Source: Corynebacterium atypicum
GTDB lineage: Bacteria > Actinomycetota > Actinomycetes > Mycobacteriales > Mycobacteriaceae
DNA: 64,000 bases
NCBI RefSeq assembly: GCF_000732945.1
Contig: NZ_CP008944.1
Coordinates: 248,001 to 312,000 of the forward strand
Direction of reading: 5' to 3'
The notes beneath the pieces are model-generated. The model saw only the letters and a list, made by a program, of their open reading frames with translations. It made no database searches and was not told the origin of the DNA. Shown piece by piece: positions 15,564 to 34,839 of the stretch (its first letter is position 1; each line of letters starts with the position of its first letter). Both the position numbers and the translations under genes were made by a program.

Positions 15564-15569
15564 TGGCTG

Positions 15570-15630
15570 CAATAGATCCCCGGTCAGGCCTCTTCCCCGT
15601 GAGGGAATGCACAAATGACCGGGGCCTTTC
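15570..15630 (+). ncRNA. Structured leader RNA upstream of the HEPN abi gene
   Basis: A perfect 9-bp stem CCCCGGTCA (15578-15586) / TGACCGGGG (15616-15624) encloses a second hairpin TTCCC (15593-15597) / GGGAA (15603-15607) with a 5-nt loop. It starts about 8 nt after the predicted transcription start, ends 27 nt before the abi ATG, and is followed by a U-rich stretch (CCTTTCATTTCT) that could cause partial termination. As I recall, recent work described conserved upstream RNAs that neutralise AbiF-type HEPN proteins; this one has the right place and strand, but its membership in that class is inferred. Confidence 0.5.
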
Positions 15631-15651
15631 ATTTCTATGGAGGCATACCCG

Positions 15652-16587
15652 ATGCCGAAGGATTGGTTGAGCTACGAGCAACAAGTAGAGCTACTCGGTC
15701 AGCGCGGCATGCACATCGATGACGAGACATCTGCAGCTGAATTTCTCGCGCAGGTCAACTACTATCGTTTCTCTGGATACTTCCGGCATTGGCAGCATGA
15801 CCCAGCACGGGGCGACAACCAGTTCTTCAAAGGCGCCTCATTTGAGACGATTCGCGCTCTCTACGCCGCAGAGCAAGAGCTAGTTGCTGTCTGCGATGAG
15901 CTCCTGCACCCCCTTGAAGTTCTCTTACGCACCCGGTTCGCCTATGCCTATGGTCGCCGTGTTGGGGTAACCGGGATGTTCGCACGCGGTGAAGGTTTTA
16001 CTCAATCACCCCACCCTGATGCTGAACGCGTCGAAGAGCACGCCCTTTCCAACCTCGATCGCAGCAAAGAGGCGTTCGTCGCCCACTACCGCGATGAAAT
16101 CAAACAAGGCCGCACCTACAAGCCTGAAGCCTATGACCGCATGCCAATCTGGGTCGCCGTGGAAGCCTTTTCTTTCGGTAGCCTGTCACGCCTCATCGAA
16201 GCATCCAGCTCATCTGGAGTGTTGGATGACATCGCAGACTCGATGAATACCTCTCGCAAACTACTGCCTGGCCAAGTGAAGTCATTCGTATACTTACGCA
16301 ACCGGATAGCTCATTGCGCTCAACTATGGAACCACCGGGTGCTCGATGTTCCCGGCCTGCAGCCGAAGACCACGAGAAGCATCAAACAGAACTACCGAAA
16401 ATTCTCGGACCATTCGATTTACAAAATCCTTGTCGCACTCGACGATGTAGCTACCCGTTCTGGAATTTCGACCGACTGGCTGTCAGAGACCATCGAGCCG
16501 ATATTGGACAAGCATCCGTTGCTCGCGAAAGGAATTGCTGAACCGGCACGATACGGAGAACTATCTCCCGATACCCTTATCGACTAG
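15652..16587 (+). CDS. Abi_2/AbiF-family HEPN abortive-infection protein
   Basis: A 311-residue Abi_2 protein. The family opening (WLSYEQQVELLGQRGM, then NYYRFSGYF at 36-44) is clear, and the HEPN RNase motif RNRIAH spans 216-221, matching the R-N-x3-H pattern shared with Cas13 HEPN sites. These proteins cleave RNA and arrest growth on phage infection. ATG 15652 is preferred over ATG 15637 because GGAGG at 15639-15643 is correctly spaced. The gene runs against all its neighbours and its stop overlaps the polymerase stop by 4 nt. It is a moron-like cargo gene, probably a phage-exclusion toxin controlled by the leader RNA. Confidence 0.87.
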   Translation: MPKDWLSYEQQVELLGQRGMHIDDETSAAEFLAQVNYYRFSGYFRHWQHDPARGDNQFFKGASFETIRALYAAEQELVAVCDELLHPLEVLLRTRFAYAYGRRVGVTGMFARGEGFTQSPHPDAERVEEHALSNLDRSKEAFVAHYRDEIKQGRTYKPEAYDRMPIWVAVEAFSFGSLSRLIEASSSSGVLDDIADSMNTSRKLLPGQVKSFVYLRNRIAHCAQLWNHRVLDVPGLQPKTTRSIKQNYRKFSDHSIYKILVALDDVATRSGISTDWLSETIEPILDKHPLLAKGIAEPARYGELSPDTLID

Positions 16588-18554: not shown

Positions 18555-19072
18555 GAGTACGTCCGCCCTGTCTTGATGGCGCTGATACATGATTGGGAAA
18601 CATCGAATTGACGTGCTAGTTCTACTCCCTGGATCCCGCAGAACAGTGCAAAGCGAATATACGACACGTCATCAAGAGTGAGTTTTCGCCAGGGCCTGCC
18701 CTGCCTATAGACATCGAGGATGTTCTGTGTACGCGTGTCGTAGCGAAGATTGACGAGCCGATTATCAGTCGGGTCGCCATTGATATGGCACACTTCCATT
18801 CCCTCGGGTGGCTCGCCAACAAATGCCAGCATGACAAGTTGATGCACCGGAATACCACTTCCACCGGTGCGCCGTCCTAGAGGAATGCTTAAATGCCCGG
18901 ATTTGCAGTAGCGCCCTGGTCGAAGAATCTTCCCTTTACATACACGCGTGAAAGATTTACCGGTGTGATGGCACACCCCGGTCACCTCATGATCCAGACT
19001 GCGGACCCGTCCCAAATCACTGACTTGATAGTATCCCTCATGTCCGGGGATGTCTCTCCACACTTCATCCAT
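18545..19072 (-). CDS. NUMOD4/HNH homing-type endonuclease
   Basis: A 175-residue free-standing homing endonuclease. NUMOD4 at the N-terminus reads VWRDIPGHEGYYQVSDLGRV; the HNH core has VHQLVMLAFVG and EVCHINGDPTDNRLVNLRY; the C-terminus has a DNA-binding NUMOD-like helix-turn-helix (VELARQFDVSQSCISAIKTG). ATG 19072 has AAGGA 7 nt upstream. It overlaps the polymerase start, a classic position for intron-less homing genes that spread between phages by cutting polymerase loci. Its composition is less G+C-rich than the flanking genes, which fits separate acquisition. Confidence 0.85.
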   Translation of the reverse strand: MDEVWRDIPGHEGYYQVSDLGRVRSLDHEVTGVCHHTGKSFTRVCKGKILRPGRYCKSGHLSIPLGRRTGGSGIPVHQLVMLAFVGEPPEGMEVCHINGDPTDNRLVNLRYDTRTQNILDVYRQGRPWRKLTLDDVSYIRFALFCGIQGVELARQFDVSQSCISAIKTGRTYSWA

Positions 19073-19151
19073 GTTCGGTTCCTTCATCTGCAATAAACAG
19101 CTGGGAGAACACCAGTCGTTCATGGGTGTTCTCCCAGCCAAAGGTTGATGG

Positions 19152-19340
19152 TTACGGGTCAGTGCGCGTGTGATACTGCTCGCGTACAGCTTCGGCATCA
19201 GCCATGAGCTTGTCGATGCGCTTGCGATCCCTTCTGATTTGCCGCTTGTCTTTGACCCAGTCGAGCAACAGCACTAGCAAGGATGGGATGAGCACGTAGA
19301 CCCACAGGGCGAGGGTGATTCCCCAAAAGACGTCCATCAC
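19152..19340 (-). CDS. Small single-pass membrane protein
   Basis: A 62-residue protein with one hydrophobic segment (about 6-28, WGITLALWVYVLIPSLLVLL) followed by a basic, helical tail (DKRQIRRDRKRIDKLM). GTG 19340 and ATG 19337 are both possible starts behind AAGGAG. Function unknown; small phage membrane proteins can act in superinfection exclusion or lysis timing, but nothing here is specific. It lies between DUF2815 and the HNH gene. Confidence 0.55.
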   Translation of the reverse strand: MMDVFWGITLALWVYVLIPSLLVLLLDWVKDKRQIRRDRKRIDKLMADAEAVREQYHTRTDP

Positions 19341-19357
19341 GATGATTGCTCCTTCTC

Positions 19358-19912
19358 CTAGTTCAGGAAGTCGTCCGAGGCGATGTTCAAGCCTCCGAAG
19401 TCGGCCTCGGCGCTGATGCGGTTGCCGCCGAGCGGTTCGCCATCACGCAGCTTCTGGATGTTGCCCAGCCCGCAGGCGATACCCCGGTTGCCGTTCGTGT
19501 TGAACGCGTAGAAGCTGATGCTCACCCGTGCGTAGCAGCCCGAGTAGACCTCGGCTGCGTCCAGGATCGGCTGCAGGTCCGTACCCACGACCTGGGGCGG
19601 TGTGGTCGAGTTGGCGTTGACGAACATGGAGTTCGCATAGGCCGCATCGTCACGCTCAACGTCGCCGTCACGCAGCGGGAGCTTCAAAGCGGCCTTGTTC
19701 GGACGCTTGCCACCGAACTTGGCCGTCCCTGCATCGATCGCCGCGTCGATGGCGCGTTCGATCTTGGCCAGGGTCTCGGTGTCGGACTTCGGGATAATCA
19801 AAGAGACGGAGTACTTAGGCTTACCGCCCTGGATGGACTTCGCCTCGAAAATGTTGGCGTAGGACAGGCGAACTTCGCCGGTGACCACACGGGTCGGATT
19901 CGTTGCAGACAT
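19358..19912 (-). CDS. DUF2815 phage protein (probable ssDNA-binding protein)
   Basis: A 184-residue DUF2815 protein: GEVRLSYANIFEAKSIQGG, then KYSVSLIIPKSDTET, KLPLRDGD, and GCYARVSISFYAFNTNGNRG. Members occur beside phage polymerases and helicases and are thought to bind single-stranded DNA with an OB-like fold. ATG 19912 has AGAAGG upstream. It follows the DUF2800 gene closely, the usual DUF2800-DUF2815-polymerase order in these elements. Confidence 0.85.
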   Translation of the reverse strand: MSATNPTRVVTGEVRLSYANIFEAKSIQGGKPKYSVSLIIPKSDTETLAKIERAIDAAIDAGTAKFGGKRPNKAALKLPLRDGDVERDDAAYANSMFVNANSTTPPQVVGTDLQPILDAAEVYSGCYARVSISFYAFNTNGNRGIACGLGNIQKLRDGEPLGGNRISAEADFGGLNIASDDFLN

Positions 19913-19937
19913 CTTGTCTTACCTTCTTTCTTGATTG

Positions 19938-21071
19938 TTACTTGATGGCAGTGAATTCGTTGGCCGCTGACTGGATCTCCAGTGCAGGCCTCTTATCGGA
20001 CTCGGGCACCAGCGTGGGCTTACCAGCGGGTTTGACCACGAGGTCCCCAAGGAGATCGGAAAAGCGCTTCTTGCCCAGCTGCTTCTCCAGCGCGGTGATC
20101 GTTTTGAGCTTGCGATCCCACACATCGACACCAGCTGCCTCAGCCGCCTGGGCGACAGCGGACTCGTCGGCGTATCTGCGGATCGAGCGGCCCTCGACGA
20201 GCTTGAAACCAGGCCAGGTCTTGCCCTGGTTCACCGCCAGCGACAGCGCGTGCGCTTCCACATCGGCAGCCCACGCCTTCAACTCCGGCAGCTGGGCCAG
20301 CACCTGTGAGATCTCGGCATCGGTGAGCTCAGCAGGGGGCGCGAACTCATGCCGGGCAAGCGCGAGATTCGCCTCAGCGCGCGTCCGGCAAGTCGGTGCG
20401 AGCTTGCAGAACCGGCACCACTCACCTGGAGCGAACTCGCCATCCCCGCTGGCTGCCAGCGCCGCACGGGGTTTGACGACCTGTTCTGCCCACGCCTCCA
20501 GCTCAGGCACCGGGATCGTCCACGTTGAGACGTTCGAGCGCCTCGGCTGGAAGATCGTCACCGCCACTTCGTTGATGTCGTAGAGCGATCCGAAAGCCTC
20601 CAACGCGCCGAGGGCATACAGCATGAGCTGCGGGTTGTGCTCAGCCTCGACCATGACACCCTGGCCGTACTTCAAATCGATGATCTGAAGCGTGGGCTCA
20701 GCAATGATGACGCAGTCGCCGGTACCGAACCCACCTGGGACCACGTGGGAGAAGTCCAGGCGCTGCTCGATGAGCACCTGCGGATCAGCACACGCCTGGC
20801 GCGCATCGCGCAGCCGCTCCTGAACGAAGGCCACGTAGTCGTCGGTCAGGACATCCATCTGCTCGTCATGCCAGCTTGAAACCGGTTTCGTGGTCGGAGC
20901 GTCATGGAGGGCACGGCGCAGCTTCCACTCCGCCAAGGCATGAGCAGCGGTTCCTTGTTCGGCAGCCTGCGAGGAGGATTCGGGCAGCCCGGCCTCCAGC
21001 GTTGCCGACGGTGGGCAGGCAAGCCACCGGTGTGCTCCCGAGGCGCTGAGCAGTGCGTGCTGGTCAGGCAT
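19938..21071 (-). CDS. DUF2800 protein, RecB/Cas4-like nuclease
   Basis: A 377-residue DUF2800 protein. It begins HALLSASGAHRWLACPPSA, a signature of the family, and has PD-(D/E)xK-type blocks FGTGDCVIIAEPTLQIIDLK and YGQGVMVEAEHNPQLMLYAL. A cysteine group (CRFCKLAPTC) near residues 245-255 may, together with the N-terminal Cys, hold an iron-sulfur cluster as in Cas4/AddB. ATG 21071 is favoured because the upstream extension is low-complexity and out of family. It overlaps the preceding gene by 8 nt. Probable role: exonuclease in phage recombination or replication. Confidence 0.85.
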   Translation of the reverse strand: MPDQHALLSASGAHRWLACPPSATLEAGLPESSSQAAEQGTAAHALAEWKLRRALHDAPTTKPVSSWHDEQMDVLTDDYVAFVQERLRDARQACADPQVLIEQRLDFSHVVPGGFGTGDCVIIAEPTLQIIDLKYGQGVMVEAEHNPQLMLYALGALEAFGSLYDINEVAVTIFQPRRSNVSTWTIPVPELEAWAEQVVKPRAALAASGDGEFAPGEWCRFCKLAPTCRTRAEANLALARHEFAPPAELTDAEISQVLAQLPELKAWAADVEAHALSLAVNQGKTWPGFKLVEGRSIRRYADESAVAQAAEAAGVDVWDRKLKTITALEKQLGKKRFSDLLGDLVVKPAGKPTLVPESDKRPALEIQSAANEFTAIK

Positions 21072-21486
21072 CAGCAATCGCCTCCGCCTGCTCCAGCAGC
21101 TGCCCGTACTTGGACGGGTCAACCTCGGAGAGCTTGTTTGCGCCAGCTGCCTGGATGAGCTCACGCACCTGCGCGGTGTGGCCTGCCTGTGACAGGCGCG
21201 CCAGAACCGTGCGGACCTGCTCCAACGACACCTGAACAACCTCCGGGACCGGGGCCGGGGCAGGTTCCGGGGCGGGCGGCTGGTGAGCCGCTTCGCACTC
21301 GTCGACTGCAGCTTCCAGCGCTGGCTGGGCGAGCTGGGCTGCGGCGATCGGGCGAGCCCCCGACATGCCCGGGTGGTCCTCGAACGATTCCCACGCGGCC
21401 TCTTCAATCGCAGAGGCCAGCATCGTGACCCCCTCCGCGATCCGGTTCAGCGCCGGGATGTAGCGGTTCGCTTCGGTGACGTTCAC
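21064..21486 (-). CDS. Conserved phage-element protein of unknown function
   Basis: A 140-residue protein with an alanine-rich N-terminal helix, a proline-rich linker (APEPAPAPVPE) and a conserved C-terminus (VSLEQVRTVLARLSQAGHTA, KLSEVDPSKYGQLLEQAE). Similar C-termini occur in phage-element proteins that databases have mislabelled as rRNA biogenesis protein; I infer no such role. It overlaps both neighbours by 4-8 nt. The VSLEEVR-type domain may mediate interaction with DUF2800 or DUF2815. Confidence 0.7.
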   Translation of the reverse strand: MNVTEANRYIPALNRIAEGVTMLASAIEEAAWESFEDHPGMSGARPIAAAQLAQPALEAAVDECEAAHQPPAPEPAPAPVPEVVQVSLEQVRTVLARLSQAGHTAQVRELIQAAGANKLSEVDPSKYGQLLEQAEAIADA

Positions 21487-21725
21487 GCGGCATCACCACC
21501 GCTCCGGGTAACGCCGACGGCACGGGCCAGTGCCATGAGGTCGTCGTCTGGGCGGATGATTTCTACTGAGCGGACCTGGTTGCCCGGCACGAGAACGGTG
21601 AGCTGCTGGGGGTTGCCGAGCAGCCTGCGCGCGATCCTGCTGCGGATGCTGACCTTGCGGGCAGAGACCGCAGCGTCAGGTTCGGGCTGGTCAGTCAACG
21701 TGACCTTGAGACGATGCTTGGACAT
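21483..21725 (-). CDS. Small basic prophage protein
   Basis: An 80-residue protein from ATG 21725 with AAGGAGG 6 nt upstream; a longer in-frame start at 21788 has no such site. It reads RLKVTLTDQPEPDAAVSARK and VLVPGNQVRSVEIIRPDDD, and its stop overlaps the next start by 4 nt. I do not recognise the family. Position as second gene of the early leftward operon suggests a regulatory or accessory replication role. Confidence 0.6.
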   Translation of the reverse strand: MSKHRLKVTLTDQPEPDAAVSARKVSIRSRIARRLLGNPQQLTVLVPGNQVRSVEIIRPDDDLMALARAVGVTRSGGDAA

Positions 21726-21788
21726 CGTTTCCTCCTTGTGAATCAGAGTGAGCGTCGGATTGTGCTGGCCTTCATGTGGGCCGGGCAC

Positions 21789-22412
21789 TCATACGCCCCC
21801 GACGGGAGCCAGATCCGGACATTCCTGCTCGATGAATTCGCGAAGCTTCTTCAGAGCCCGCTTGACCGAGCGCCCGATGCTGTTCGCTCGCTTTGTCACA
21901 TCGGCTTCGTCAGCACCGGGCAGCTCCTCACGCGCGATCTCGACGAAGGAGAACCCCTCAAACACGTGCAGTCGGATGTGCTCGGCTTGCTTGGCGCTGA
22001 CCTGAGACAGCAGCCAATCGACAACCAGCTCACTGTCGATCTGGTCTTCGTGAACCGAGACGTTCAGGTACTGGGGCCCGTCATGGACCTCGACTTCCCA
22101 GTCGCTATACGAGAGGTCGCCACGGTTTCGAGCGTTTTCAGCGGCACGAAAACTGCGGTAGGCAGCGCGCAGATATGCGACTTTCCACTCCGGCACGTAC
22201 GTCGGGTCGTACAGCAAGGCGAGCATGTCCTCGGCGCTCAGCCCGAGGTCGTCATCTCCGGTCGGCGGGTCGACGAGCTCGATCCACGCATATTCCTGGA
22301 CTCCGTCTGTGACCTTCGAGGGCACGTAAATGTGGGTGAACTCTTTGCCGCCGACCTTCTTGGTGCGGACGGCGTAGGGCTGGGCGGTGTCAGTATTGGG
22401 TTGTGTTGTCAA
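21789..22412 (-). CDS. Phage sigma-70 region 4-like regulator
   Basis: A 207-residue protein whose C-terminal half (about 125-200) reads LVVDWLLSQVSAKQAEHIRL, FEGFSFVEIARE and then RANSIGRSVKRALKKLREF, the helix-turn-helix layout of sigma-70 region 4. No region 2 is visible. It starts at TTG 22412 behind AGGAGG, the first gene of the leftward operon. Phage proteins of this kind usually act as transcription factors of early or late operons rather than full sigma factors. Confidence 0.75.
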   Translation of the reverse strand: MTTQPNTDTAQPYAVRTKKVGGKEFTHIYVPSKVTDGVQEYAWIELVDPPTGDDDLGLSAEDMLALLYDPTYVPEWKVAYLRAAYRSFRAAENARNRGDLSYSDWEVEVHDGPQYLNVSVHEDQIDSELVVDWLLSQVSAKQAEHIRLHVFEGFSFVEIAREELPGADEADVTKRANSIGRSVKRALKKLREFIEQECPDLAPVGGV

Positions 22413-22497
22413 GGGGATCCCTCCTTAGGAGGGAGACCCGCTTGAGTAAGCAAGCTCGGTGTCGACGGCTTCGCAGAGATGGGCAGAGAAACGAGAA

Positions 22498-22526
22498 GGC
22501 AGGTACCCGTAGGTTGGGTACCTGCC
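22498..22526 (+). terminator. Strong hairpin in the divergent region, terminator or structured leader
   Basis: GGCAGGTACCC (22498-22508) and GGGTACCTGCC (22516-22526) form a perfect 11-bp stem with a 7-nt loop; AGAGAA/TTCTCT extends it after an internal loop. A pyrimidine-rich tract follows on the plus strand. With no gene upstream on the plus strand, an attenuator or insulator is as likely as a terminator. Confidence 0.45.
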
Positions 22527-22771
22527 GCTTGCTTCTCTTACGCGTCTCCCGAGTGGTCGACGGCCTTGTGTGATCAGCACGCGGCACCTGTAGGTCGCAG
22601 AACCGTCGTGGCCACTCGAGTCCTGCACCGCCTAAAGCACTTGCAGAGTGTTCTAGGCACCTTCGAAGGACGTCAGCGGCGGACTGGAGACCGCAGTCTC
22701 GCGGTCCCACCGGACGCCCTCCGGAGGCACTTTGAGACTAGAAATCGGGCGAGAAAATGTCGTTGCCCCGG

Positions 22772-22793
22772 TTTTGGTGCTGTTTTGGTGCTG
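22772..22793 (+). repeat. Tandem 11-bp repeat just before the ABC-3C operon
   Basis: TTTTGGTGCTG occurs twice in direct tandem (22772-22782 and 22783-22793), followed by TTTTT and the GAGGAGG ribosome-binding site of the first gene. The 11-bp period places both copies on one face of the helix. It is a candidate operator for the small XRE regulator encoded in the operon. Confidence 0.6.
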
Positions 22794-22812
22794 TTTTTCC
22801 GAGGAGGTTGTG

Positions 22813-24054
22813 ATGAGCCAGTTGTGCTTCGCGACCTTCGCGCGAGCCCTGCAAAAGGTGCTCATCCAGCCAGCAGCGGTGTACTCCACACCGGCCCGAC
22901 AAGGTGTCAAGAAACCGTCGACGGCCCGGCCGAAGATGACCTCAACCGATGGCTACATCGTGGAGGTCCTCCTGCGCTGGATCCAGGACTTCGCCCCCGT
23001 TGCAGACAAGGACGGCTGGGATGTGTGGCGCAGCCCGAAAACAGTGAACGGCCTACTCGGCCAGAAAATCGAGCTGCACACTGGATTCGGGTCCGTTCTG
23101 AACCAACCCGGGCTACGCAAGGCTGGACGAGACGCGTTCGGCAAGATCGCCCAAAATATTGCTCCGATGCGTGAGACTGACTTCAAAACCGAGCTGATCG
23201 AACTGATCAAAGACGATCCCGAGATCAGTGCCGACGCTGCCGAAGACCTGCTGTACACCGCAACCAACGATGAAGTGGCGTTTTACGCGGATACGTTCAT
23301 CTCGGCTATCTCAAGGCCCAACAAGAAGCGAGCCGGTAACGACTCGTTGACCGCTGCGGATGTTGCGCTTGCAGCGCGCAATAAAGACGTGTGCCCGGTC
23401 TGTCGCAAAGAGCGACTGGTGAAGACCGTCAAGGGCGAACGGCGACCATTCTTCGAGATTGTCTCCTTCACCATTGACGACAACAGCTCTGAAACCGACC
23501 GGGAAGCAGTGTGTGTCAAGTGCGCCAAACTCGCCGCCAGCACTGGGGCTCTGCTCGTCGACCCTGACACACTCACCACGCTTCGCGAGGTCCGCAAACG
23601 CCGGATCGAAGCGACTGCCCTCCAAGACCTGGCCCTTGATGCGCAGCTCGGACCTGCGATCTCTGACGTCATCGAGACGCTGGGAGAACGCATCATGTCA
23701 GGCAACGTTCCAGATCTGACCATGGATGCGGTTCGGGTGACCGACAAGATTCGCACGGAGTTCTACGAGCTTGCTGGGCGGATCAGGATCCACGTCCTGC
23801 AGTGGTACCGCATCATCGAGCACGAGTTCCGCGCACTCGAAGGCGTCAGAGGTCGCAGCCGATTCGACGCGATAGCCGGGCAAGTCGCCGACTTTTACGA
23901 CCAGGCGTCCCAGCACACTGATGACCAGCAGGCGATCTTCGATCACGTGGCTGATTGGATCCACACCAACTCCGACTCGACGAACCTCAACGCGTCGGTC
24001 ATCGTGACGTGCTTCTTCGTTCAAAACTGTGAGGTGTTCGATGCGATTGCCTAG
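22813..24054 (+). CDS. ABC-three-component system CTD-type protein
   Basis: A 413-residue protein, first gene of the defence operon, ATG 22813 behind GAGGAGG. The N-terminus (FATFARALQKVLIQPAAVYS) and gene order match the CTD (C-terminal domain) component of ABC-three-component conflict systems defined by Aravind and co-workers. A zinc-ribbon-like pair CPVC (194-197) and CVKC (234-237) lies mid-protein, and a helical C-terminal region (IRTEFYELAGRIRIHVLQWY) follows. In the published model this component couples the ATPase to an effector or sensor; its activity is not known. It overlaps the MC6 gene by 14 nt. Subfamily number not assigned. Confidence 0.72.
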   Translation: MSQLCFATFARALQKVLIQPAAVYSTPARQGVKKPSTARPKMTSTDGYIVEVLLRWIQDFAPVADKDGWDVWRSPKTVNGLLGQKIELHTGFGSVLNQPGLRKAGRDAFGKIAQNIAPMRETDFKTELIELIKDDPEISADAAEDLLYTATNDEVAFYADTFISAISRPNKKRAGNDSLTAADVALAARNKDVCPVCRKERLVKTVKGERRPFFEIVSFTIDDNSSETDREAVCVKCAKLAASTGALLVDPDTLTTLREVRKRRIEATALQDLALDAQLGPAISDVIETLGERIMSGNVPDLTMDAVRVTDKIRTEFYELAGRIRIHVLQWYRIIEHEFRALEGVRGRSRFDAIAGQVADFYDQASQHTDDQQAIFDHVADWIHTNSDSTNLNASVIVTCFFVQNCEVFDAIA

Positions 24055-24274
24055 CAAGGTTACCCCCTACTCGCAGTCTACGCTGAGCCAATTTCCGCCG
24101 ATCCTGAAACATCTGTCCGATCAGGATCTCAGTCCCGCTGCCTTATACAAGAAGGTCAAATCAAAGTTTGCCGACGTGGACGAGTTCGTCGACACGTTGG
24201 ACTGCTTATTCGCACTCGGCCAGATCGAGCTGCTCTACCCGGAGGAGGTGCTCCACTATGTTGGTCGAGTTTGA
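24041..24274 (+). CDS. ABC-three-component middle component, MC6-like
   Basis: A 77-residue protein beginning MRLPSKVTPYSQSTL and containing FADVDEFVDTLDCLFALGQI and YPEEVLHYV. Length and pattern match the short MC6 winged-helix-like middle component encoded directly before DUF2326 ATPases. ATG 24041 is inside the CTD gene; the stop overlaps the ATPase gene by 17 nt. It probably bridges ATPase and CTD protein. Confidence 0.75.
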   Translation: MRLPSKVTPYSQSTLSQFPPILKHLSDQDLSPAALYKKVKSKFADVDEFVDTLDCLFALGQIELLYPEEVLHYVGRV

Positions 24275-25919
24275 CAGTGACGCGTTCTATCACGACGAAC
24301 AACGCCCCGGCCCCCTGCGCTTAAAAGAAGGACTCAACACGGTTCTCGGTACTGAAAACACCGAGAACTCCATCGGCAAATCCACCACGCTGCTGGCCAT
24401 CGACTTCTGCTTCGGTGGCAGCGACTACGTCGACAAAGCCAAAGACGTCATCAAGAACATCGGCCATCACGAGATCCGATTCGCGTTCCTCCTCGGCGGA
24501 GAGACCCACTACTTCCGCCGCGCCACCGACACGCCGACCTCGATCACCCTGTGCGATAAGAACTATCGCCCGCAGCGCACCATGACACTCGAGGACTTCA
24601 AGGGCTTTGTCGGCACTCAATATGGACTTCAAGATGCTGGCATCACGCTCCGTCAAGCAGTCAGCAACTTCTTCCGCATCTGGCAACGGAAGAACTCCGA
24701 TGTCGACCACCCACTTCTTGCGTACCCGCGAGACACCCAGGCTGACGGCGTCAAGCGTCTACTGATGCTGTTCGATCAGTACACCAAGCTGCAAGGTTTC
24801 ATGGCGGCCAAGGACGAGGCGGTTCGAGAGCTTGACCTGTTCAATGCCGCCGGGCGCTACTACGACTTCCCCCGAGCAAGGAATATCACCGAGGTCAACA
24901 ACAACACTCAGCGAATCGAAGACCTCCAGACCGAACGGGACCAAGCAGGGACCCGCGCAGGACTGACTGCTAAGGACTACACCTCAGCCCAGCAAGCAGC
25001 TATCAACGAGGTGCAGGCAGAACGCGAGCCCTTGCTGCGTCGTTTTAACCAGCTTGGTAGACAAATCAACGCCATGCGTCGGGCAAAGGGCATCTCATCT
25101 GATGTCAGCCTGACCAGGAAGTTCGAGTCCTTACGTGAGTTCTTCCCGCAGGCAAATATCGAACACATCGAGAACATCGAACACTTCCACCGCAGCATCC
25201 GGCAGATCCTAGAAGCTGAGTTCAAAGCCGAAAGCAAAGAGCTCGAAGACGAGCGTGAACGCATCCGGCACCGGCTCGAACAACTCAACATTAGGCTCGA
25301 AGAGTTATCGGTCGCGCCCACAGCAACCCAGGCCGACATCCGTGCCTACAGTGAACTCGATCGCCAGATCCGATCACTGCGCAACGCCAACAAGGCTTTC
25401 CACGACGAGCAGCGACTCACAGAAGCTAAAAAGCAAGCCTCCGAAGCACTCGACGAAGCATCCGCAACGATCCTGGAGAACATCGAAGGGAAACTCAACG
25501 AGACGATGCAACGCATCGACGGGGAAATCACCCGCGAGGAACGAACCCCACCGAGCATCCGGATTCCGGCGATCGACAAATACTCCTACGAGATCGAGAA
25601 CGACTCAGGAACCGGCTCTACCCAACGCGGCCTGATCTCCTTCGATCTGGCATTGCTGGAAACAACGCTTCTGCCAGCAGTCGCACACGACTCGATGCTC
25701 GTCCAGCCCATCGAAGACCAAGCCTTCGACGGCATCGCACAGGTCTATGCGCGCCAGAAGAAGCAGGTCTTCCTCGCGATCGACAAAATCAGCCGCTACT
25801 CGGAGGAAACCCAACAGATCTTGACTAAGTCAGCATTCATCGATCTCGAACCCGGACGAGAGCTGTTTGGCCGGTCGTGGAGTAAAAAGAAGAAGAGGAA
25901 GGCTAACGGCAGTGAGTAA
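24258..25919 (+). CDS. DUF2326 SMC/Rad50-like ABC ATPase of the ABC-3C system
   Basis: A 553-residue ATPase with Walker A GTENTENSIGKST (31-43), a long coiled-coil middle (about 225-470, rich in Glu, Arg, Gln, with ELEDERERIRHRLEQLN), and a C-terminal half-site with ISFDLALLETTLLPAVAHDS followed by an FLAIDKI block in the Walker B/H-loop area. This is the DUF2326 layout. ATG 24258 has GGAGGAGG upstream. SMC-like ATPases of this kind act on nucleic acids in several anti-phage systems. It overlaps the XRE gene by 8 nt. Codon use and G+C are like the rest of this operon and lower than the chromosomal core. Confidence 0.82.
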   Translation: MLVEFDSDAFYHDEQRPGPLRLKEGLNTVLGTENTENSIGKSTTLLAIDFCFGGSDYVDKAKDVIKNIGHHEIRFAFLLGGETHYFRRATDTPTSITLCDKNYRPQRTMTLEDFKGFVGTQYGLQDAGITLRQAVSNFFRIWQRKNSDVDHPLLAYPRDTQADGVKRLLMLFDQYTKLQGFMAAKDEAVRELDLFNAAGRYYDFPRARNITEVNNNTQRIEDLQTERDQAGTRAGLTAKDYTSAQQAAINEVQAEREPLLRRFNQLGRQINAMRRAKGISSDVSLTRKFESLREFFPQANIEHIENIEHFHRSIRQILEAEFKAESKELEDERERIRHRLEQLNIRLEELSVAPTATQADIRAYSELDRQIRSLRNANKAFHDEQRLTEAKKQASEALDEASATILENIEGKLNETMQRIDGEITREERTPPSIRIPAIDKYSYEIENDSGTGSTQRGLISFDLALLETTLLPAVAHDSMLVQPIEDQAFDGIAQVYARQKKQVFLAIDKISRYSEETQQILTKSAFIDLEPGRELFGRSWSKKKKRKANGSE

Positions 25920-26169
25920 ACGAATAGAGTTCGACCTCCAAGTCAAAGCCTCCTACAAACCCCTGTGGAAGCTGCTGGTGGACAAGGACAAGCTCAAGCA
26001 AGACCTGCGCGAGGAAGCCAAACTGTCGTCCACCACGATGGCCAGGCTCAACAACGGCGACAACGTCACCACCGACGTACTCCTGCGCATTTGCCAGGTC
26101 CTCAACTGCCAGGTCGGCGACATCGTCGAGGTTGTTGCTACTAATGAATCGAAAGAATACAACGAATGA
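25912..26169 (+). CDS. Small XRE-family transcriptional regulator
   Basis: An 85-residue helix-turn-helix protein of the compact XRE type (LKQDLREEAKLSSTTMARLN, then TDVLLRICQVLNCQVGDIVE). GTG 25912 overlaps the ATPase stop by 8 nt; the stop overlaps the hsdM ATG by 4 nt. Its position between the ABC-3C and R-M halves makes it a candidate common regulator, comparable to the C proteins of other R-M systems. The tandem 11-bp repeat upstream of the operon could be its operator. Confidence 0.85.
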   Translation: MSKRIEFDLQVKASYKPLWKLLVDKDKLKQDLREEAKLSSTTMARLNNGDNVTTDVLLRICQVLNCQVGDIVEVVATNESKEYNE

Positions 26170-27947
26170 GCCAACTAGGATCTTTTATCTGGGGCACCGC
26201 CGACGTTTTGCGAGGCCCCTACAAGGCAAGTCAGTACGGCAATGTCATCTTGCCCATGACAATTCTGCGCCGTCTTGACTGCGTCCTTGAAGAGCACCGA
26301 ACCACCATCGAGCCATTGGTCGAACGCTTCGGCAATAATCCTGAACTCCTGTCTGCACAGGTGCAGCGCGCAACCGGGTTGCCGTTCTACAACACCAGCC
26401 CTTGGTCGCTTAAGACCCTACTCGGAGATCCCAAGGGCATCGAAGCGAACCTGAAGCACTACGTGAACGGGTTCTCAGACAACATGGACGTTTTCGAACG
26501 CTTCAAGCTTGCTGACGAGATCGCCACCATGGCCGAGAAGAACATCCTCTACATCGTGGTTGAACGCTTCTCCAACATCGATCTACACCCCAAGACAGTC
26601 ACGAACGCCGAGATGGGCGACCTCTACGAGTACCTCATCCGAACCTTCAACGAGTCCTCCAACGAGGCGCCGGGGGAGCACTTCACCCCGCGCGACGCCA
26701 TCCGGCTCCTCGTGGATCTTGTCTTTGCTGGCGACGACGAAGCGCTGAGCACCCCGGGCGCCATCCGGTCGATCTATGATCCCACGGTCGGCACAGGAGG
26801 AATGCTTTCCATCGCCGAAGAACACCTGATCGGCAGTAGTGACAGGCCCGGCCTGAACCCACAAGCCCAGCTACGGCTGTACGGGCAGGAATGGAACGAT
26901 CAGTCCTATGCGGTGTGCAAATCCGACCTGCTGATCAAAGGCTATGACTCCAGCAACATCCAGCTCGGCGACACACTTGCCGACGACAAATTCGCTGGAC
27001 AGACTTTCGACTACTGCATGTCGAACCCACCGTATGGCGACGACTGGAAAGCCAGCCAATCGGCCGTCATGGAGGATCTGAAAGAGCTCGGTAGCTCTTC
27101 TCGCTTTTACGCTGGCGGCGATAAACCCAAACAGAATGTTCCCGCCGTCAGCGACGGGCAGATGCTCTTCCTCCAACACGTGGTGAGCAAACTCCGCCCC
27201 AAAGTCAAGGGCGGTGGCCGGGGCGGCATCGTCATGAACGGCTCGCCGCTGTTCAATGGCGCTGCGGAGTCAGGGCCGTCCAACATCCGCAAATGGCTGC
27301 TCGAACATGACCTGGTGGACGCCATTGTGGCATTGCCTAACGACATGTTTTATAACACTGGCATCGCCACGTATATCTGGATCGTCGATAACAACAAGCC
27401 CGGAGAGCGTCAGGGCAAGGTGCAACTGATTGACGGCACCGAGTTCTACCAGAAGATGCGGAAGAAGCTCGGCGACAAGGGGCGTGAAATTAGCGAGGCC
27501 AATCGCGCCACGATCGTTAAGCTCTACGATGACTACGTTGAAACTGAACACTGCAGGATCGTCCCCATCGAGGAGTTCGCCTATTGGCTTGTCACGGTGG
27601 AGCGCCCCCGGCGCGACGAACACGGCGAAGTCATCACGAATGCTCGAGGCAAGAAGCAACCAGACGCAGCGCTGCGTGACACCGAGCGCGTGCCTTTCAC
27701 CTATGGTGGCAACGCCCAGGGTGATGGCGGGCGGCAGGAAACCATCCGGGCGTATTTCGATGCTGAGGTGAAGCCCTATGTGCCTGACGCATGGGTTGAC
27801 GAGAAGAAGACGAAGATCGGCTACGAGATTCCCTTCACCCGTTTTTTCTACCGCTACCAGCCGCCACGGCCACTCGAGGAGATCGACGCCGAGCTCCACC
27901 AAGTGACCACGGTAATCCTGCAGTTGCTTAACGAGGTGACGGAATAG
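26166..27947 (+). CDS. hsdM: Type I restriction-modification methyltransferase subunit
   Basis: A 593-residue HsdM. The SAM-binding motif is DPTVGTGGMLS, the catalytic motif is NPPYGDDW preceded by FDYCMS, and PGEHFTPRDAIRLLVDL is the family signature. An N-terminal helical HsdM_N domain is present (FIWGTADVLRGPYKASQYGN). It methylates adenine in the sequence chosen by HsdS. The length is above the 500-residue norm because of a C-terminal extension with TRFFYRYQPPRPLEEIDAEL. It is coupled to the XRE gene (ATGA) and to hsdS (1-nt overlap). Confidence 0.93.
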   Translation: MSQLGSFIWGTADVLRGPYKASQYGNVILPMTILRRLDCVLEEHRTTIEPLVERFGNNPELLSAQVQRATGLPFYNTSPWSLKTLLGDPKGIEANLKHYVNGFSDNMDVFERFKLADEIATMAEKNILYIVVERFSNIDLHPKTVTNAEMGDLYEYLIRTFNESSNEAPGEHFTPRDAIRLLVDLVFAGDDEALSTPGAIRSIYDPTVGTGGMLSIAEEHLIGSSDRPGLNPQAQLRLYGQEWNDQSYAVCKSDLLIKGYDSSNIQLGDTLADDKFAGQTFDYCMSNPPYGDDWKASQSAVMEDLKELGSSSRFYAGGDKPKQNVPAVSDGQMLFLQHVVSKLRPKVKGGGRGGIVMNGSPLFNGAAESGPSNIRKWLLEHDLVDAIVALPNDMFYNTGIATYIWIVDNNKPGERQGKVQLIDGTEFYQKMRKKLGDKGREISEANRATIVKLYDDYVETEHCRIVPIEEFAYWLVTVERPRRDEHGEVITNARGKKQPDAALRDTERVPFTYGGNAQGDGGRQETIRAYFDAEVKPYVPDAWVDEKKTKIGYEIPFTRFFYRYQPPRPLEEIDAELHQVTTVILQLLNEVTE

Positions 27948-29173
27948 TGCTCAAGTTTAGAGGAACGAGTCTCCCAGCTTGGATCCCTGCAGTAGAGTCG
28001 GACGTTGCAGGACGAGGTACGCAGATCCTTCCTGTCGGTTATCTATTTAGTAAGTTTCGGATAATCCCTGGAGCGGGTCAGGCTGATGCCTACAAACGGC
28101 TATCGCTAACTATGAGTGGCGTGCTGCCCAGATCGCGAGAGGCGACCGACGGTCTACAGCCTGAATCTTTCGACTCTTATCAACTTCTAAAACCAGGCCA
28201 ACTAGTTTTTAAACTCATTGATCTCCAGAATGTATCCACCAGCCGCGTCGGGCTATCTGGTGATGAAGGGCTCGTGAGTCCCGCATATCTAGTCGTTGAG
28301 CCGTCGGCTAAGGTAATTCCTCGCTACGCCTATTGGTACTTTATGGATCTATATTTTCGGCGAGTTTTCAACAACCTTGCGGAAGACGGTGTGCGGGCTT
28401 CCATTGGGTGGGAGGGACTTAAGGAGTTTCCATTCCCACTACGGCCCATTGAGCAGCAAGCCCGCATTGCTCAGTACCTCGATGTGGAGACGGCAAAGAT
28501 TGACCACCTCATCGCCAAACAGCGCGAGCTTCTCAAACTGCTCGATCTTCGTAACGAGGCACGCTGGCATGAGGCGTTCACGGGGTTCACACCCTTGAAA
28601 ACGCTTCCGTTGAAGCGGTTACTCGTCAAGCAATATCGACCGGTGGTTGAAGGGGCTGGCGTCGTCACTGCTTTTCGTGATGGCGAGGTAACACTGCGCT
28701 CAAACCGTCGGGAAGAAGGGTTCACTTTCTCAGAGACGGAAGCTGGGTATCAAGGAGTAGTTGCGGGCGACCTGGTGTTCCACGGCCTGGACGGCTTCGC
28801 GGGTGCCGTCGGTATCTCTGATAGCAACGGCCAGTCGACACCCGTTTATCACGTCTGTCGGCTCCGTAATGATGATGACAATCTTCGTTTTATCGCTTAC
28901 TTGCTCCGATATCTGGGTAATAGCGGGTTCTTGGCTACCCAAGCGCCGAGCGTTCGTCAACGTGCTGTGGACTTCAGGAATTGGCAGACTTTTGGTCGGA
29001 TTCCGCTTTCTCTGCCTCAAGGGAAAGTGCAGCAAAGGATTGTGTCTGAGCTAGATGAGAGCGCGAAAGCGCTTGCTGACGCTAGGGCAACAATTGAGCG
29101 TGCTTTGGGGCTCTTGCAGGAGCGTCGTTCGGCGTTGATCACTGCTGCGGTGACAGGCCAGATTGAGGTTTAA
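27947..29173 (+). CDS. hsdS: Type I restriction-modification specificity subunit
   Basis: A 408-residue HsdS starting at GTG 27947. Two target-recognition domains are separated by a conserved helix (PIEQQARIAQYLDVETAKIDHLIAKQ, in part) and followed by a second helix repeat (QQRIVSELDESAKALADARA). The first half (27950-28450) and parts of the second are visibly richer in A and T than hsdM and hsdR, as expected when recognition domains are swapped by transfer. It sets the DNA target of the methylase and nuclease; the bipartite recognition sequence cannot be read from the protein. Confidence 0.9.
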   Translation: MLKFRGTSLPAWIPAVESDVAGRGTQILPVGYLFSKFRIIPGAGQADAYKRLSLTMSGVLPRSREATDGLQPESFDSYQLLKPGQLVFKLIDLQNVSTSRVGLSGDEGLVSPAYLVVEPSAKVIPRYAYWYFMDLYFRRVFNNLAEDGVRASIGWEGLKEFPFPLRPIEQQARIAQYLDVETAKIDHLIAKQRELLKLLDLRNEARWHEAFTGFTPLKTLPLKRLLVKQYRPVVEGAGVVTAFRDGEVTLRSNRREEGFTFSETEAGYQGVVAGDLVFHGLDGFAGAVGISDSNGQSTPVYHVCRLRNDDDNLRFIAYLLRYLGNSGFLATQAPSVRQRAVDFRNWQTFGRIPLSLPQGKVQQRIVSELDESAKALADARATIERALGLLQERRSALITAAVTGQIEV

Positions 29174-29183
29174 GGAGGACGTA

Positions 29184-32100
29184 ATGGGTGTTCAGCACGA
29201 GAAGAGTTTTGAGACCGAGATCTGCGAGTTCCTCGGTGCGCATGGCTGGTTGTACGAAGAGGATTTCACCGGCTATGACCAGGAGCATGCGCTGATTCCG
29301 GAGGACGTGTTTGCGTGGCTTCAGGAGACGCAGCCTGAGCAGTGGGCGCGGGTCATGCCGGATAACGACTCGCCGGTGGAGACTGCTCTTGCACAGCGGT
29401 TGCTGGTGGATCGGCTCGTGAAGGAGCTCGACCAGCCGCTCGAGCATGGCGGCGGTCTGCTTGCCGTGCTGCGTGGCGGGTTCAGGAAAACCCCAGCGAA
29501 GTTCTTCATGTGTGCGTTCAAGCCTGCGACCTCGATGAACCCCGAAGCCGAGCAGCATTACCAGGCGAACCGGCTCCGGGTGGTGCGGCAAGTACATCAC
29601 TCGGCGAAGCGCCCGCAGGATTCGATCGACCTGGTGTTCTTCGTCAACGGCCTGCCGGTGGCGACCGCCGAGCTCAAGACCGACAACACACAGTCGATTG
29701 ATGACGCGGTGCGTCAATACCGTCGAGATCGTGTACCTCAAGGCGAACCGTTGCTGAAGTTCGGCTCCCGTGCTCTGGTCCATTTTGCGGTTTCCACTGA
29801 CGAGATCCGGATGACCACGAAGCTAGATGGTGCGGACACGGTGTTCTTGCCGTTTAACCTCGGCAATGATGGCGGTGCTGGTAATCCGGTCAACCCGAAT
29901 GGCGCAGCCACCTCCTACCTGTGGGAGCGGGTGCTGCAGCGGGATAACTGGCTGCAGATCCTGGAACGATTTGTGAACCTGCAGATCACTGAGAAGGTCG
30001 ATCCCATCACCGGCGTCCGCTCGCGTAGCAGGCAGATCATCTTCCCGCGCTTCCACCAGTGGGAGGCCGTAACTCGCCTGTTTGAGGCCACGAGCGCCGA
30101 GGGACCAGGCAGCAAGTACCTGATCCAGCACTCTGCAGGATCTGGAAAGACGAACTCGATCGCGTGGCTTGCCCACGGGCTCGCGAACCTCCACAACGCC
30201 GATAACTCGAAGACCTTTGATTCGGTCATCGTCGTGACTGACCGCACCGTGCTTGATGACCAGCTTCAGAAAGCGATTAAGGCGATTGAAGGCACAAAGG
30301 GTGTGGTCGGAACGATTAACGCTGACGAGGTTCGTAAAGCGTCAGCGACCTCAAAATCGGACCTGTTGGCCAAGGAACTGAGTAGCGGCAAGCTCATCAT
30401 TATCGTCACGTTGCAGACTTTCCCGTTTGTGCTTGAGGCGCTTGCACAGCAGGGTGGGCTCGCGGAACGCAAGTTTGCGGTGATCGCGGACGAGGCGCAC
30501 TCGTCCCAGACCGGTACAAGTGCTCAGAAGCTGCGACAGGTTCTTTCACAAGCAGAGGTCGAAGCCCTCGAGGACGGTGGCGAGGTCAGCGTCGAGGACG
30601 TGCTTGCCGCTGAGATGGCTGCGCGGGCGACTGCTCAGAATATCTCGTTCTATGCGTTTACTGCTACGCCGAAGGGCAAGACGCTGGAGATGTTTGGCCG
30701 TCCTGGTGCGGATGGGTTGCCACAGCCTTTCCATGTGTACACGATGCAGCAGGCCATTGAGGAGGGTTTTATCCTTGATGTGCTGCGTAACTACACGACT
30801 TATAAGACGGCTTTCCAGCTCGCTCAGAAAGCTGGTGGGGCTGTTGGCGGTGAAGATCTCGTGGATGAGGGCACCGCGAAAAAGGGCCTGATGCGGTGGG
30901 TGAGTCTGCATCCGACAAACATTGCTCAGAAGGTTCAGATCATAGTCGAGCATTTCCGCGAGAATGTTGCTGAGCTCCTCGATGGGCACGCTAAGGCGAT
31001 GGTGGTGACCTCGAGCCGAGCCGCTGCGCTGAAGTACAAGATGGCAATCGACGCCTATGTTGAGAAACACAATTACCCATTGGGAACCTTGGTGGCGTTC
31101 TCCGGAACCTTGACCGCTGAGCAGATTGATGATTTCGTTCCCGGAGTGCAGGAGCCGTATACAGAAACGAACATGAACCCTGACCTGCGCGGGCGCGGGA
31201 TTCCACAAGCGTTCGCGGGCGATCAGTTCCAGGTTTTGATTGTTGCCAACAAGTACCAGACGGGCTTTGATCAGCCGTTGCTGTGCGCGATGTACGTGGA
31301 CAAACGCCTTGACGGGATCGAAGCGGTCCAGACGCTTTCCCGTCTGAATCGTACCCTGCCGTCCAAGGGTAAAGACACGACGTACATTCTTGACTTCGTC
31401 AACGACACGGACACGATCCTCGACGCATTCCTGCCGTACTACCGCACTGCCGAAATCATTGAAACTACTGACCCAGATCTCGTGCATGACCTTGCTCGGA
31501 AGCTTGAAGTTGCAGGGATCTATACGAAGGATGATGTGGATGCCTTCGCGCAGGCATTCATCATCGAGAAGAAGCACGGTAAGCACACTGCACCGCTGAA
31601 GCAAGCTACTGATCGGTTCAATGACCGCTACGTCGCAGCCTTAGCCGACAACACAAAGGCCGAGATTGACGAGCTTGACCTTTTCCGCAAGGACGTTGGC
31701 TCATTCGTGCGCCTCTACGATTTCCTGTCTCAAGTTGTCGACTATCAGGACACCGACCTCGAAAAGCTCGCCCTGTTCCTCCGGCTACTACGACCGCGAC
31801 TTACTGGTCGCAAGACTCCAGAAGAGCTGGACTTTGACAACATCGAGCTCACCCACATCAAGCAGACGCGTAAGAGCGAAGGGTCTATTTCGCTTGGGGG
31901 CGACGGCGAGAAGCTCAAGCCGATGGGGGTTGGTGGTGGACGTTCGCGCGACCCGCATCTTGTGGCCTGGGAAGAAATCCTGAACAACATCAATTCCCTG
32001 TTTGAGGACGAGGATTTTGATCCTGGTTCAGTGGAGTCCTGGGTACAGGGCGTCGTCACGATTCTCGTTCAGAATGAAGAGATTAAAGATCAGGTCAACG

Positions 32101-32336
32101 CTAACACCAAGGAGCAGTTTCGTGAGTCGCAGACGATTGAAACTGCCGTCACGAACGCGGTGCTTGATCACCAGGACTCCCAGCAAAACATCATGGAGAA
32201 GTTCTTCGAAAGTGCTCATCGTAAGGGCCAGATCATTAAAGAGATCTCCGACCTTGTTTACTGGGAACTTCGCCACCAGGCTGAGAAGGGTACACAACCT
32301 CAAGACAATGGAGAGGATGACGTCGACCAGGAGTAG
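29184..32336 (+). CDS. hsdR: Type I restriction endonuclease subunit
   Basis: A 1050-residue HsdR. The nuclease domain has a PD-(D/E)xK site (Asp149; AELKTD with Glu163 and Lys165). The motor has Walker A AGSGKT (318-323), DEAH in VIADEAHSSQTG, a FTATPKGKTLEMFG block and the C-terminal helicase motif QTLSRLNRTLPSKGK. A helical C-terminal domain binds HsdM/HsdS. ATG 29184 is preceded by AAGGAGG; the gap to hsdS is 10 nt. With HsdM and HsdS it translocates and cuts unmodified DNA. All motifs appear intact, so the system is probably active. Confidence 0.93.
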   Translation: MGVQHEKSFETEICEFLGAHGWLYEEDFTGYDQEHALIPEDVFAWLQETQPEQWARVMPDNDSPVETALAQRLLVDRLVKELDQPLEHGGGLLAVLRGGFRKTPAKFFMCAFKPATSMNPEAEQHYQANRLRVVRQVHHSAKRPQDSIDLVFFVNGLPVATAELKTDNTQSIDDAVRQYRRDRVPQGEPLLKFGSRALVHFAVSTDEIRMTTKLDGADTVFLPFNLGNDGGAGNPVNPNGAATSYLWERVLQRDNWLQILERFVNLQITEKVDPITGVRSRSRQIIFPRFHQWEAVTRLFEATSAEGPGSKYLIQHSAGSGKTNSIAWLAHGLANLHNADNSKTFDSVIVVTDRTVLDDQLQKAIKAIEGTKGVVGTINADEVRKASATSKSDLLAKELSSGKLIIIVTLQTFPFVLEALAQQGGLAERKFAVIADEAHSSQTGTSAQKLRQVLSQAEVEALEDGGEVSVEDVLAAEMAARATAQNISFYAFTATPKGKTLEMFGRPGADGLPQPFHVYTMQQAIEEGFILDVLRNYTTYKTAFQLAQKAGGAVGGEDLVDEGTAKKGLMRWVSLHPTNIAQKVQIIVEHFRENVAELLDGHAKAMVVTSSRAAALKYKMAIDAYVEKHNYPLGTLVAFSGTLTAEQIDDFVPGVQEPYTETNMNPDLRGRGIPQAFAGDQFQVLIVANKYQTGFDQPLLCAMYVDKRLDGIEAVQTLSRLNRTLPSKGKDTTYILDFVNDTDTILDAFLPYYRTAEIIETTDPDLVHDLARKLEVAGIYTKDDVDAFAQAFIIEKKHGKHTAPLKQATDRFNDRYVAALADNTKAEIDELDLFRKDVGSFVRLYDFLSQVVDYQDTDLEKLALFLRLLRPRLTGRKTPEELDFDNIELTHIKQTRKSEGSISLGGDGEKLKPMGVGGGRSRDPHLVAWEEILNNINSLFEDEDFDPGSVESWVQGVVTILVQNEEIKDQVNANTKEQFRESQTIETAVTNAVLDHQDSQQNIMEKFFESAHRKGQIIKEISDLVYWELRHQAEKGTQPQDNGEDDVDQE

Positions 32337-34762: not shown

Positions 34763-34797
34763 CCCACGGCCTGCGGAGTGGTCGAGCAAGGCCCAAT

Positions 34798-34834: not shown

Positions 34835-34839
34835 CACGA

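Follow-up and report, generated by a model that had tools for sequence, protein, structure and literature searches.

A prophage-borne operon of Corynebacterium atypicum in which an ABC-three-component cassette with an XRE regulator precedes an apparently exchangeable type I restriction-modification system

ABC-three-component (ABC-3C) systems are known largely from gene neighbourhoods. They were reportedly defined by Krishnan and colleagues in Nucleic Acids Research (NAR) in 2020, in an abstract that is said to place ABC ATPases independently of or together with restriction-modification (R-M), and a general ABC-3C/R-M association is likely to be known already. Here we analyse a seven-gene operon of Corynebacterium atypicum in which ABC-3C genes and an XRE-type regulator gene precede a type I R-M system. 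The window, a stretch of 64,000 nucleotides, comprises positions 248,001 to 312,000 of contig NZ_CP008944.1; coordinates are counted from its first nucleotide and the loci compared with it are cited by L-number. ABC-3C systems have been placed within the Lamassu superfamily, with HNH listed among the LmuA effectors, in PMC10586767. According to PMC12409362, Lamassu activation frees LmuA, which then forms a tetramer whose nuclease is active; a nuclease-dead relative would then have to act through a different output. A precedent from inside type I loci is PrrC, which, according to PMC12707154, sits in the EcoprrI type IC locus and is triggered by inhibition of R-M, RloC being triggered by DNA breaks. 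The term ABC-3C is not used in the accessible portion of PMC10853773, and the clade set out below was not found described in titles and abstract openings on ABC-3C and restriction-modification within a limited paper collection. A nuclease-dead, XRE-linked ABC-3C clade, its range of partners and the swap at its junction with R-M genes seem to be new.

In the window the seven genes are all open and lie on the plus strand between 22813 and 32336, in the order CTD, middle component, ATPase, XRE, hsdM, hsdS and hsdR (Table 1). Successive genes overlap by 14, 17, 8, 4 and 1 nucleotides and 10 nucleotides separate hsdS from hsdR, exactly as an earlier sequence-only reading of this stretch had given them. 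In a simple scan of 22300-34950, promoter-like sites numbered 2 where 4.0 were expected and terminator-like sites 14 where 11.0 were expected, so that no signal above chance breaks the operon. That the ABC-3C and R-M genes are one tightly packed unit is supported by this arrangement. The first three products give the composition by which ABC-3C systems are recognised: a CTD-domain protein, a middle component and an ABC ATPase with Walker A and signature motifs. A recognisable effector domain fused to the CTD, also part of the ABC-3C definition, was not found in the window protein, to which the Pfam, NCBIfam and PADLOC scans assigned no effector family. The middle component, previously called MC6-like, belongs instead to MC7, at 87.8 bits, the MC6 model of Pfam reaching 19.4 bits, under its cut-off of 27.2. 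Aligned with 74 relatives, the ATPase retains GTENTENSIGKST and GTGS, which we take to be its Walker A and ABC signature motifs, and its matches to PADLOC models are weak (PDC-M68B, 1.1e-8; LmuB, E 3.9e-7, 1.7e-6 and 7.1e-3). The NCBIfam models for hsdM and hsdR match under their curated cut-offs (103.8 against 242.75 bits and 187.5 against 284.55 bits). Their translations carry NPPYG (HsdM) and GSGKT, DEAH and ELK (HsdR), which presumably have the functions usual for such motifs, and the window holds a type I R-M set with HsdM, HsdS and HsdR and its catalytic motifs.

Table 1. Positions of the operon genes and of associated features in the window
Feature	Position	Strand	Evidence
Prophage early genes, context outside the operon	14645..22412	-	Pfam; synteny with L009, L010, L011
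Conserved, highly structured leader RNA, 400 nucleotides, directly 5' of the CTD gene	22413..22812	+	Fold, consensus fold, pair changes
CTD11 protein, 413 aa	22813..24054	+	Pfam PF20277, 146.4 bits (cut-off 27.7); alignments; motif table
MC7 middle component, 77 aa	24041..24274	+	Pfam PF20292, 87.8 bits (cut-off 27)
SMC/Rad50-like ABC ATPase (DUF2326), 553 aa	24258..25919	+	Pfam PF10088, 44.7 bits
XRE/Cro-C1 type regulator (HTH_26), 85 aa	25912..26169	+	Pfam PF13443, 60.2 bits; identities; alignment
Module junction, where DNA homology to other cassettes stops or starts	26127..26175		blastn
HsdM, 593 aa, NPPY motif	26166..27947	+	N6_Mtase 199.3 bits, HsdM_N 77.5; PADLOC MTase_I 802.5 bits
HsdS, 408 aa	27947..29173	+	Methylase_S 24.8 bits (cut-off 22); PADLOC Specificity_I
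HsdR, 1050 aa, helicase and nuclease motifs	29184..32336	+	Pfam HSDR_N, SWI2_SNF2, T1R_D3-like

The same order, made up of homologous genes, recurs in other Corynebacterium, Arcanobacterium and viral records: at L009 (Arcanobacterium pluranimalium, with HsdS spread over two open reading frames, ORFs), at L010 (a record named Tissierella sp.), at L131, L184 and L099 and, with the CTD, ABC and HsdM genes in pieces, at the decayed L011 (C. silvaticum). Such recurrence makes the seven-gene order more than a matter of chance. The cassette is also found in L098, as well as in L099, L131 and L184. Percentage identities to the window proteins, in the order CTD/ABC/XRE/HsdM/HsdR, are 81/88/88/91/89 for L131, 75/75/73/96/89 for L010, 78/91/88/80/95 for L011, 88/92/67/74/67 for L184, 81/89/89/41/31 for L009, 59/72/77/39/31 for L099 and 80/90/88/39/none for L098. 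A second type I family is common to L009 and L099 (mutual identity 88% for HsdM and 92% for HsdR), and of this family L098 has a truncated HsdM, 96% identical to that of L009; HsdS is 34-74% identical among the five relatives that carry the R-M family of the window. XRE identity tracks ABC and not HsdM in four of the seven close relatives (L009, L010, L098 and L099), is uninformative in two (L011 and L131) and shows the opposite in one (L184).

The point of exchange is visible at the DNA level. Blastn homology to the window ends at 26132 in L009, 26127 in L098 and 26175 in L099, and begins at 26138 in L175; with XRE ending at 26169 and hsdM starting at 26166, these breakpoints place the exchange at the XRE/hsdM junction. 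L175 joins the R-M family of the window (HsdM 87%, HsdS 63%, HsdR 87%) to a different XRE (37%) and shows no ABC-3C match. Within the genus sample, HsdM is matched at E <= 1e-60 in 41 of 201 genomes and CTD11 at E <= 0.001 in 6 of 201, so such R-M genes usually occur without this cassette; CTD11 was matched in one of 201 family genomes and one of 396 phylum genomes, both times the window's own. The order therefore recurs as modules, two type I families standing behind related ABC-3C genes with a break at XRE/hsdM. The search across genomes that had been proposed for the seven-gene order does find it elsewhere (L009, L010, L131, L184, L099), and it is not unique to this genome; what it finds are exchangeable modules.

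The CTD11 family was surveyed from 114 loci, the genome locus set being the best 80 of 91; four without an ABC gene in the stretch (L023, L185, L189, L196) were left out, and removal of 13 near-duplicates (CTD at least 95% identical) left 97. Long-form loci were defined by a CTD ORF of at least 370 aa or by absence of the HNH-type motif pair. The pair is present in all 53 short-form loci and in none of the 44 long-form ones, a contrast that follows in part from the definition itself; judged on length only, all 39 ORFs of at least 370 aa lack it and 53 of 58 ORFs of at most 300 aa have it, the five others being broken-gene pieces (L011, L048, L206) plus L085/L086. An XRE gene accompanies 37 of 44 long-form and none of 53 short-form loci, and three of the seven long loci without one (L012, L194, L203) have less than 1 kb of sequence past the ABC gene. 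Where there was enough sequence, a methyltransferase lies within the first four co-directional downstream genes at 21 of 37 long-form as against one of 45 short-form loci (Fisher p 1.2e-8, uncorrected for kinship). Among the 21 are loci whose partners are broken or truncated (L011, L098, L101, L200, L206) and two that were counted by hand (L195, L205). Neighbours of both forms, mainly those of long-form loci, served as seeds for the methyltransferase profiles; as a check on this bias, Pfam was run on 80 short-form neighbours and gave two N6_Mtase and one MethyltransfD12 match among the 25 of 75 families listed. In a tree of the ATPases, built by a quick method with a midpoint root, the 42 long rows fall on one side of a single branch with SH-aLRT 92, below the tool's starred 95, and L132, L133 and L012 have long branches. 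Linkage of the long-form ABC-3C clade to modification-based systems far more often than in its sister clade is supported by these counts.

The partners are of several kinds. Type I genes in M-S-R order follow the cassette in the window, L009, L010, L011, L099, L131 and L184 and, truncated, in L098; a third type I family, in R-M-S order, follows in L133. Type III partners were recognised by Pfam in L013, L026, L101, L134 and L135 and by similarity in L041, L045, L200 and L206. At L205 a BREX set, brxA-brxB-brxC-pglX, with pglX cut by the end of the stretch, stands directly behind CTD11-MC7-ABC-XRE; L195 carries DUF499-DUF3780-DUF1156, and L061 a PLD-helicase with two C5 and one N6 methyltransferase. 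Such a range, the swap of R-M genes at XRE/hsdM and the occurrence of the R-M unit without ABC-3C at L175 do not bear out HsdR or HsdM as the specific partner of the ABC-3C proteins, as had been envisaged. The proposal that the operon is one defence unit keeps its support from the tight packing and from the clade linkage of 21/37 versus 1/45; the part that made it a dedicated machine of ABC-3C and type I proteins is not supported. R-M genes also occur beside short-form loci: L024:34-7746, a short-form locus of a Burkholderiales metagenome-assembled genome with the motif intact, has the hsdR of a type I operon before the cassette and its hsdM-hsdS after it, and upstream lie an N6 methyltransferase (L027), Mod and Res (L084), an HsdR-like gene (L021) and a Res-like gene (L030).

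The CTD11 protein of the window consists of an N-terminal domain (about 1-170), a CxxC...CxxC segment (C194, C197, C234, C237) and CTD11 (271-409). Its HNH-type motif is broken and the His residues of the sister clade are absent; it is a member of a clade without the sister clade's HNH-type motif. This loss bears on the choice, left by the sequence-only reading, between an effector role for R-M and a pair of layers governed by one regulator. When the long-form alignment was searched in 295 genomes of the order of L061, 19 genomes matched, 15 of them only within positions 1-194. The N-terminal domain stands there on STAND NTPases with TPRs (L136, L140), on a NACHT protein (L139), on a HamA protein (L138) and on a CTD6 protein accompanied by MC2 and an AAA_23 protein (L141). 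With a profile of the domain these five are recovered at E 4e-13 to 4e-9; the best of 822 decoys scores 8e-4 and the best short-form protein 0.8. Nine long-form proteins lay outside the profile: seven of them beat the best decoy, L135 (0.006) falls behind it and L101 went undetected.

Several observations attach to this domain. It looks like a domain of conflict systems for which the scans made here gave no separate Pfam match. At L138:711-6998 an XRE of the same family is followed by the fusion of the N-terminal domain with HamA, a helicase that we take to be HamB-like and a type III Mod, so that Hachiman and type III lie in one run. In the metagenomic protein P0039 the N-terminal part of the CTD protein is in frame with the XRE protein, as though MC7 and ABC had been deleted. 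A helix-turn-helix suspected by eye in the N-terminal domain was unsupported (hhalign against the XRE alignment, probability 0.1, E 0.55), and a PDB profile search with the domain returned no credible match, only helical ones presumed to be due to chance. The CTD6 proteins of L228 and L230 resemble it in part by eye, and the profile did not find them.

By its surroundings the seven-gene operon is prophage cargo. The early genes to its left, mostly on the minus strand, include a KilAC/BRO antirepressor, a phage DNA polymerase A, NUMOD4-HNH, an Enc34 single-stranded DNA-binding protein and DUF2800, together with a 207-aa gene that resembles sigma factors below cut-off. The window prophage is in IMG/VR as IMGVR_UViG_2811995065 (L183), a viral contig that reaches as far as the end of hsdM and whose CTD protein is 100% identical. 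Of 201 genus genomes, 40 match the flanking phage DNA (19358-22412) of the prophage at E <= 0.001 and 12 do so at E <= 1e-50, and related prophages have flanking genes of 70-74% DNA identity. In the stretches examined from these, the cargo slot is variously filled: with CTD6 and AAA_23 ABC-3C genes, an XRE (57% to that of the window) and type III Mod and Res in L228, whose middle gene was left out of the domain scan; with CTD6-MC2-AAA_23, an XRE (55%) and HsdM in L229; with CTD6-MC2-AAA_23, an XRE (58%) and a XamI-type endonuclease in L230; with a divergent CTD11 cassette and type III in genome G620 (L101); with type I genes on the opposite strand, without ABC-3C matches, in a second prophage of the window's genome; and with other genes in L227, the stretch of L226 being too short to show the slot content. 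Because CTD6 cassettes occupy the same slot in related prophages, the plan of ABC-3C and XRE genes before R-M is not confined to CTD11. Searched against plasmid and phage collections, the CTD protein gave two weak plasmid records and no phage record; the ABC protein gave six plasmid records.

The leader, which separates the CTD gene from the divergent phage genes, is conserved in eight aligned loci. Its single-sequence fold has z -6.2, and the consensus fold of the eight loci reaches -99.8 kcal/mol against -62.8 in column shuffles (z -7.3). Both partners have changed in 25 pairs, against 9.4 in shuffles (0/500) and 3-9 when slid. The covariation term of RNAalifold is no better than in shuffles (-0.58 against a mean of -2.99), and an Rfam scan of the leader gave no match at E<=1. 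Departures are G-U rather than A-C in 41 versus 28 cases, a lean to the plus strand that is biased by the structure-finding procedure. The leader is present in four of 201 genus genomes, the four with a close-family CTD gene, and absent from the two genus genomes with divergent CTD matches and from six related-prophage stretches; as its presence follows the close-family CTD gene, it seems to be tied to the cassette and not to the phage. The phage collection held no match to the region around the leader and the plasmid collection none to the leader itself. A leader as a general part of the long clade was considered and discarded: z <= -4 upstream of the CTD gene was found at 7 of the 44 long-form loci and, among the 52 short-form loci that were scored (out of 53), at 2.

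An Abi_2 abortive-infection-type gene (15637-16587, plus strand) lies amid the early genes of the prophage. On the right flank a type ISP restriction enzyme is present in two pieces (32506-33759 and 34052-34762), the first 169 nucleotides past hsdR; relatives lie 199 nucleotides past hsdR in L009 (53% identity), where the R-M family differs, and 196 nucleotides past it in L131 (51%). Beyond the pieces lies a tRNA-Pro gene, which as an attachment site is unsupported: when 32501-36000 was compared with the 36 kb to the left and the window's first 30 kb, the best repeats had 14-16 nucleotides and none overlapped the tRNA gene.

Taken as anatomy, these features show a composite, modular prophage cargo, with a predicted promoter-proximal four-gene cassette and an exchangeable restriction-modification system behind it. 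For its function we tentatively favour, with rather less than even confidence, a sensor-control cassette of ABC-3C and XRE genes placed before modification-based defences, in which a DNA-sensing SMC-like complex would control the downstream genes. The SMC-like ATPase, with MC7 and the CTD protein, would sense an infection signal on DNA, as is thought for Lamassu and ABC-3C complexes; the output of the cassette would no longer be its own DNA cleavage, and the N-terminal domain and the XRE protein would set the timing and strength of downstream gene expression. Restriction might, for example, be held back while a new lysogen is unmethylated and be released on infection. Related sets before several quite different modification-based defences suggest a general plug-in, and since the partners share little beyond the modification-based character of most of them, the pairing is better explained by control exerted at the 5' end of the operon than by a specific protein contact with HsdR, Res or PglX.

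Several findings weigh against such control. Of the 37 long-form loci with enough sequence downstream, 16 lack a methyltransferase in their first four co-directional genes; L032, L063 and L132 have the four-gene cassette followed by opposite-strand genes, so the cassette can stand without a co-directional partner, and L085 and L086 carry DUF4238 instead. The XRE of L184 is 67% identical to that of the window, with ABC at 92% and HsdM at 74%, and thus does not always track ABC. The first HNH His is retained in 4 of 22 long-form segments (L014, L026, L041, L045), where the pattern [AI]H[IVL][YF]P skips it because V precedes it. Nor was an identity for the N-terminal domain found by comparison with the XRE profile or by the PDB sequence search.

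A close rival, possible although we are inclined to doubt it, is that two independent layers share a promoter and a mobile carrier without being linked in mechanism, R-M acting as first line and ABC-3C as the second, an abortive one whose new toxic effector would be the N-terminal domain. The R-M unit does stand without ABC-3C (L175, and 41/201 against 6/201 genus genomes for HsdM and CTD11), the cassette occurs without co-directional R-M at L032, L063 and L132, the N-terminal domain is found, in the manner of effector or adaptor domains, on STAND NTPases, a NACHT protein and HamA, and the slot holds other cargo in related prophages. Yet the preference of 21/37 versus 1/45, the position of the cassette on the 5' side and the overlapping or nearly overlapping genes exceed what a random defence island would lead one to expect.

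An unlikely arrangement, in our judgement, is that ABC-3C acts as a guard, watching the R-M enzyme or its DNA products and killing or arresting the cell when restriction is inhibited, after the pattern of PrrC in EcoprrI. Since most partners cut or mark DNA, they would have a signal based on breaks or methylation in common, and L018 has beside its cassette an AAA_13 fragment, which we take to be of the PrrC/RloC type. However, the CTD protein has no anticodon-nuclease, HEPN or other recognised effector domain and its HNH-type motif is broken; moreover, BREX and Druantia-type partners do not obviously make breaks. Precedent for guarding comes from PrrC, which responds to R-M inhibition, and RloC, which responds to DNA breaks (PMC12707154). 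Recruitment of the downstream enzyme as effector by an SMC-like complex that recognises foreign DNA, an idea from the sequence-only reading, would suit a lost nuclease motif that goes with a downstream DNA-acting system, but is very improbable, as no docking protein common to HsdMSR (three families), Mod-Res, BrxABC-PglX, DUF1156 and C5/N6 is evident, R-M genes with HsdM 87% identical to the window's lack ABC-3C at L175, and R-M is swapped behind closely related ABC-3C genes.

Returning to the sensor-control cassette, we regard its widest form as conceivable, with more doubt than conviction: one ABC-3C clade may have lost its nuclease and become a mobile, partner-agnostic sensor-switch with XRE, joined in this prophage family by the leader RNA, that controls type I, type III, BREX, DUF1156 and C5/N6 systems, CTD6 with a related XRE doing likewise in the same slot, also before a XamI-type gene. 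If true, the motif-less, XRE-linked clade would provide common bacterial defences with a control layer that they share, with a bearing on how prophages bring restriction systems into unmethylated hosts without killing them. The natural comparison between cassettes with the HNH-type motif intact and standing alone and those with it broken and plugged in would make the function of the ABC core directly testable.

Set beside the described systems, the window has the same three families as ABC-3C systems with CTD11, MC7 and DUF2326, in the same order and with overlapping genes; from other ABC-3C systems its clade differs by a broken HNH-type motif, an added N-terminal domain, XRE and, often, a modification-based system behind. 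Lamassu (LmuA-LmuC-LmuB) and DdmABC are alike in having an SMC-like ATPase, a small middle protein and a CTD-type protein, whereas the window gives weak PADLOC LmuB matches (best 3.9e-7), has no recognisable LmuA enzyme domain and has XRE and R-M appended. The accessory NTPase of PrrC is of the ABC type. An AAA_13-type ABC domain fused to an anticodon nuclease had no match in the window proteins (Pfam, NCBIfam). PrrC/EcoprrI and RloC share with the window an accessory NTPase gene inside a type I R-M locus (PMC12707154); in contrast, the window is three-component, without a recognised anticodon nuclease and with exchangeable partner types. As in type I R-M systems, all three subunits are present, in M-S-R order, with the difference that the set is prophage-borne and lies behind an ABC-3C/XRE cassette. 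Where the window has type I genes, L205 has the cassette before BREX, and the cassette is thus not tied to one type of partner.

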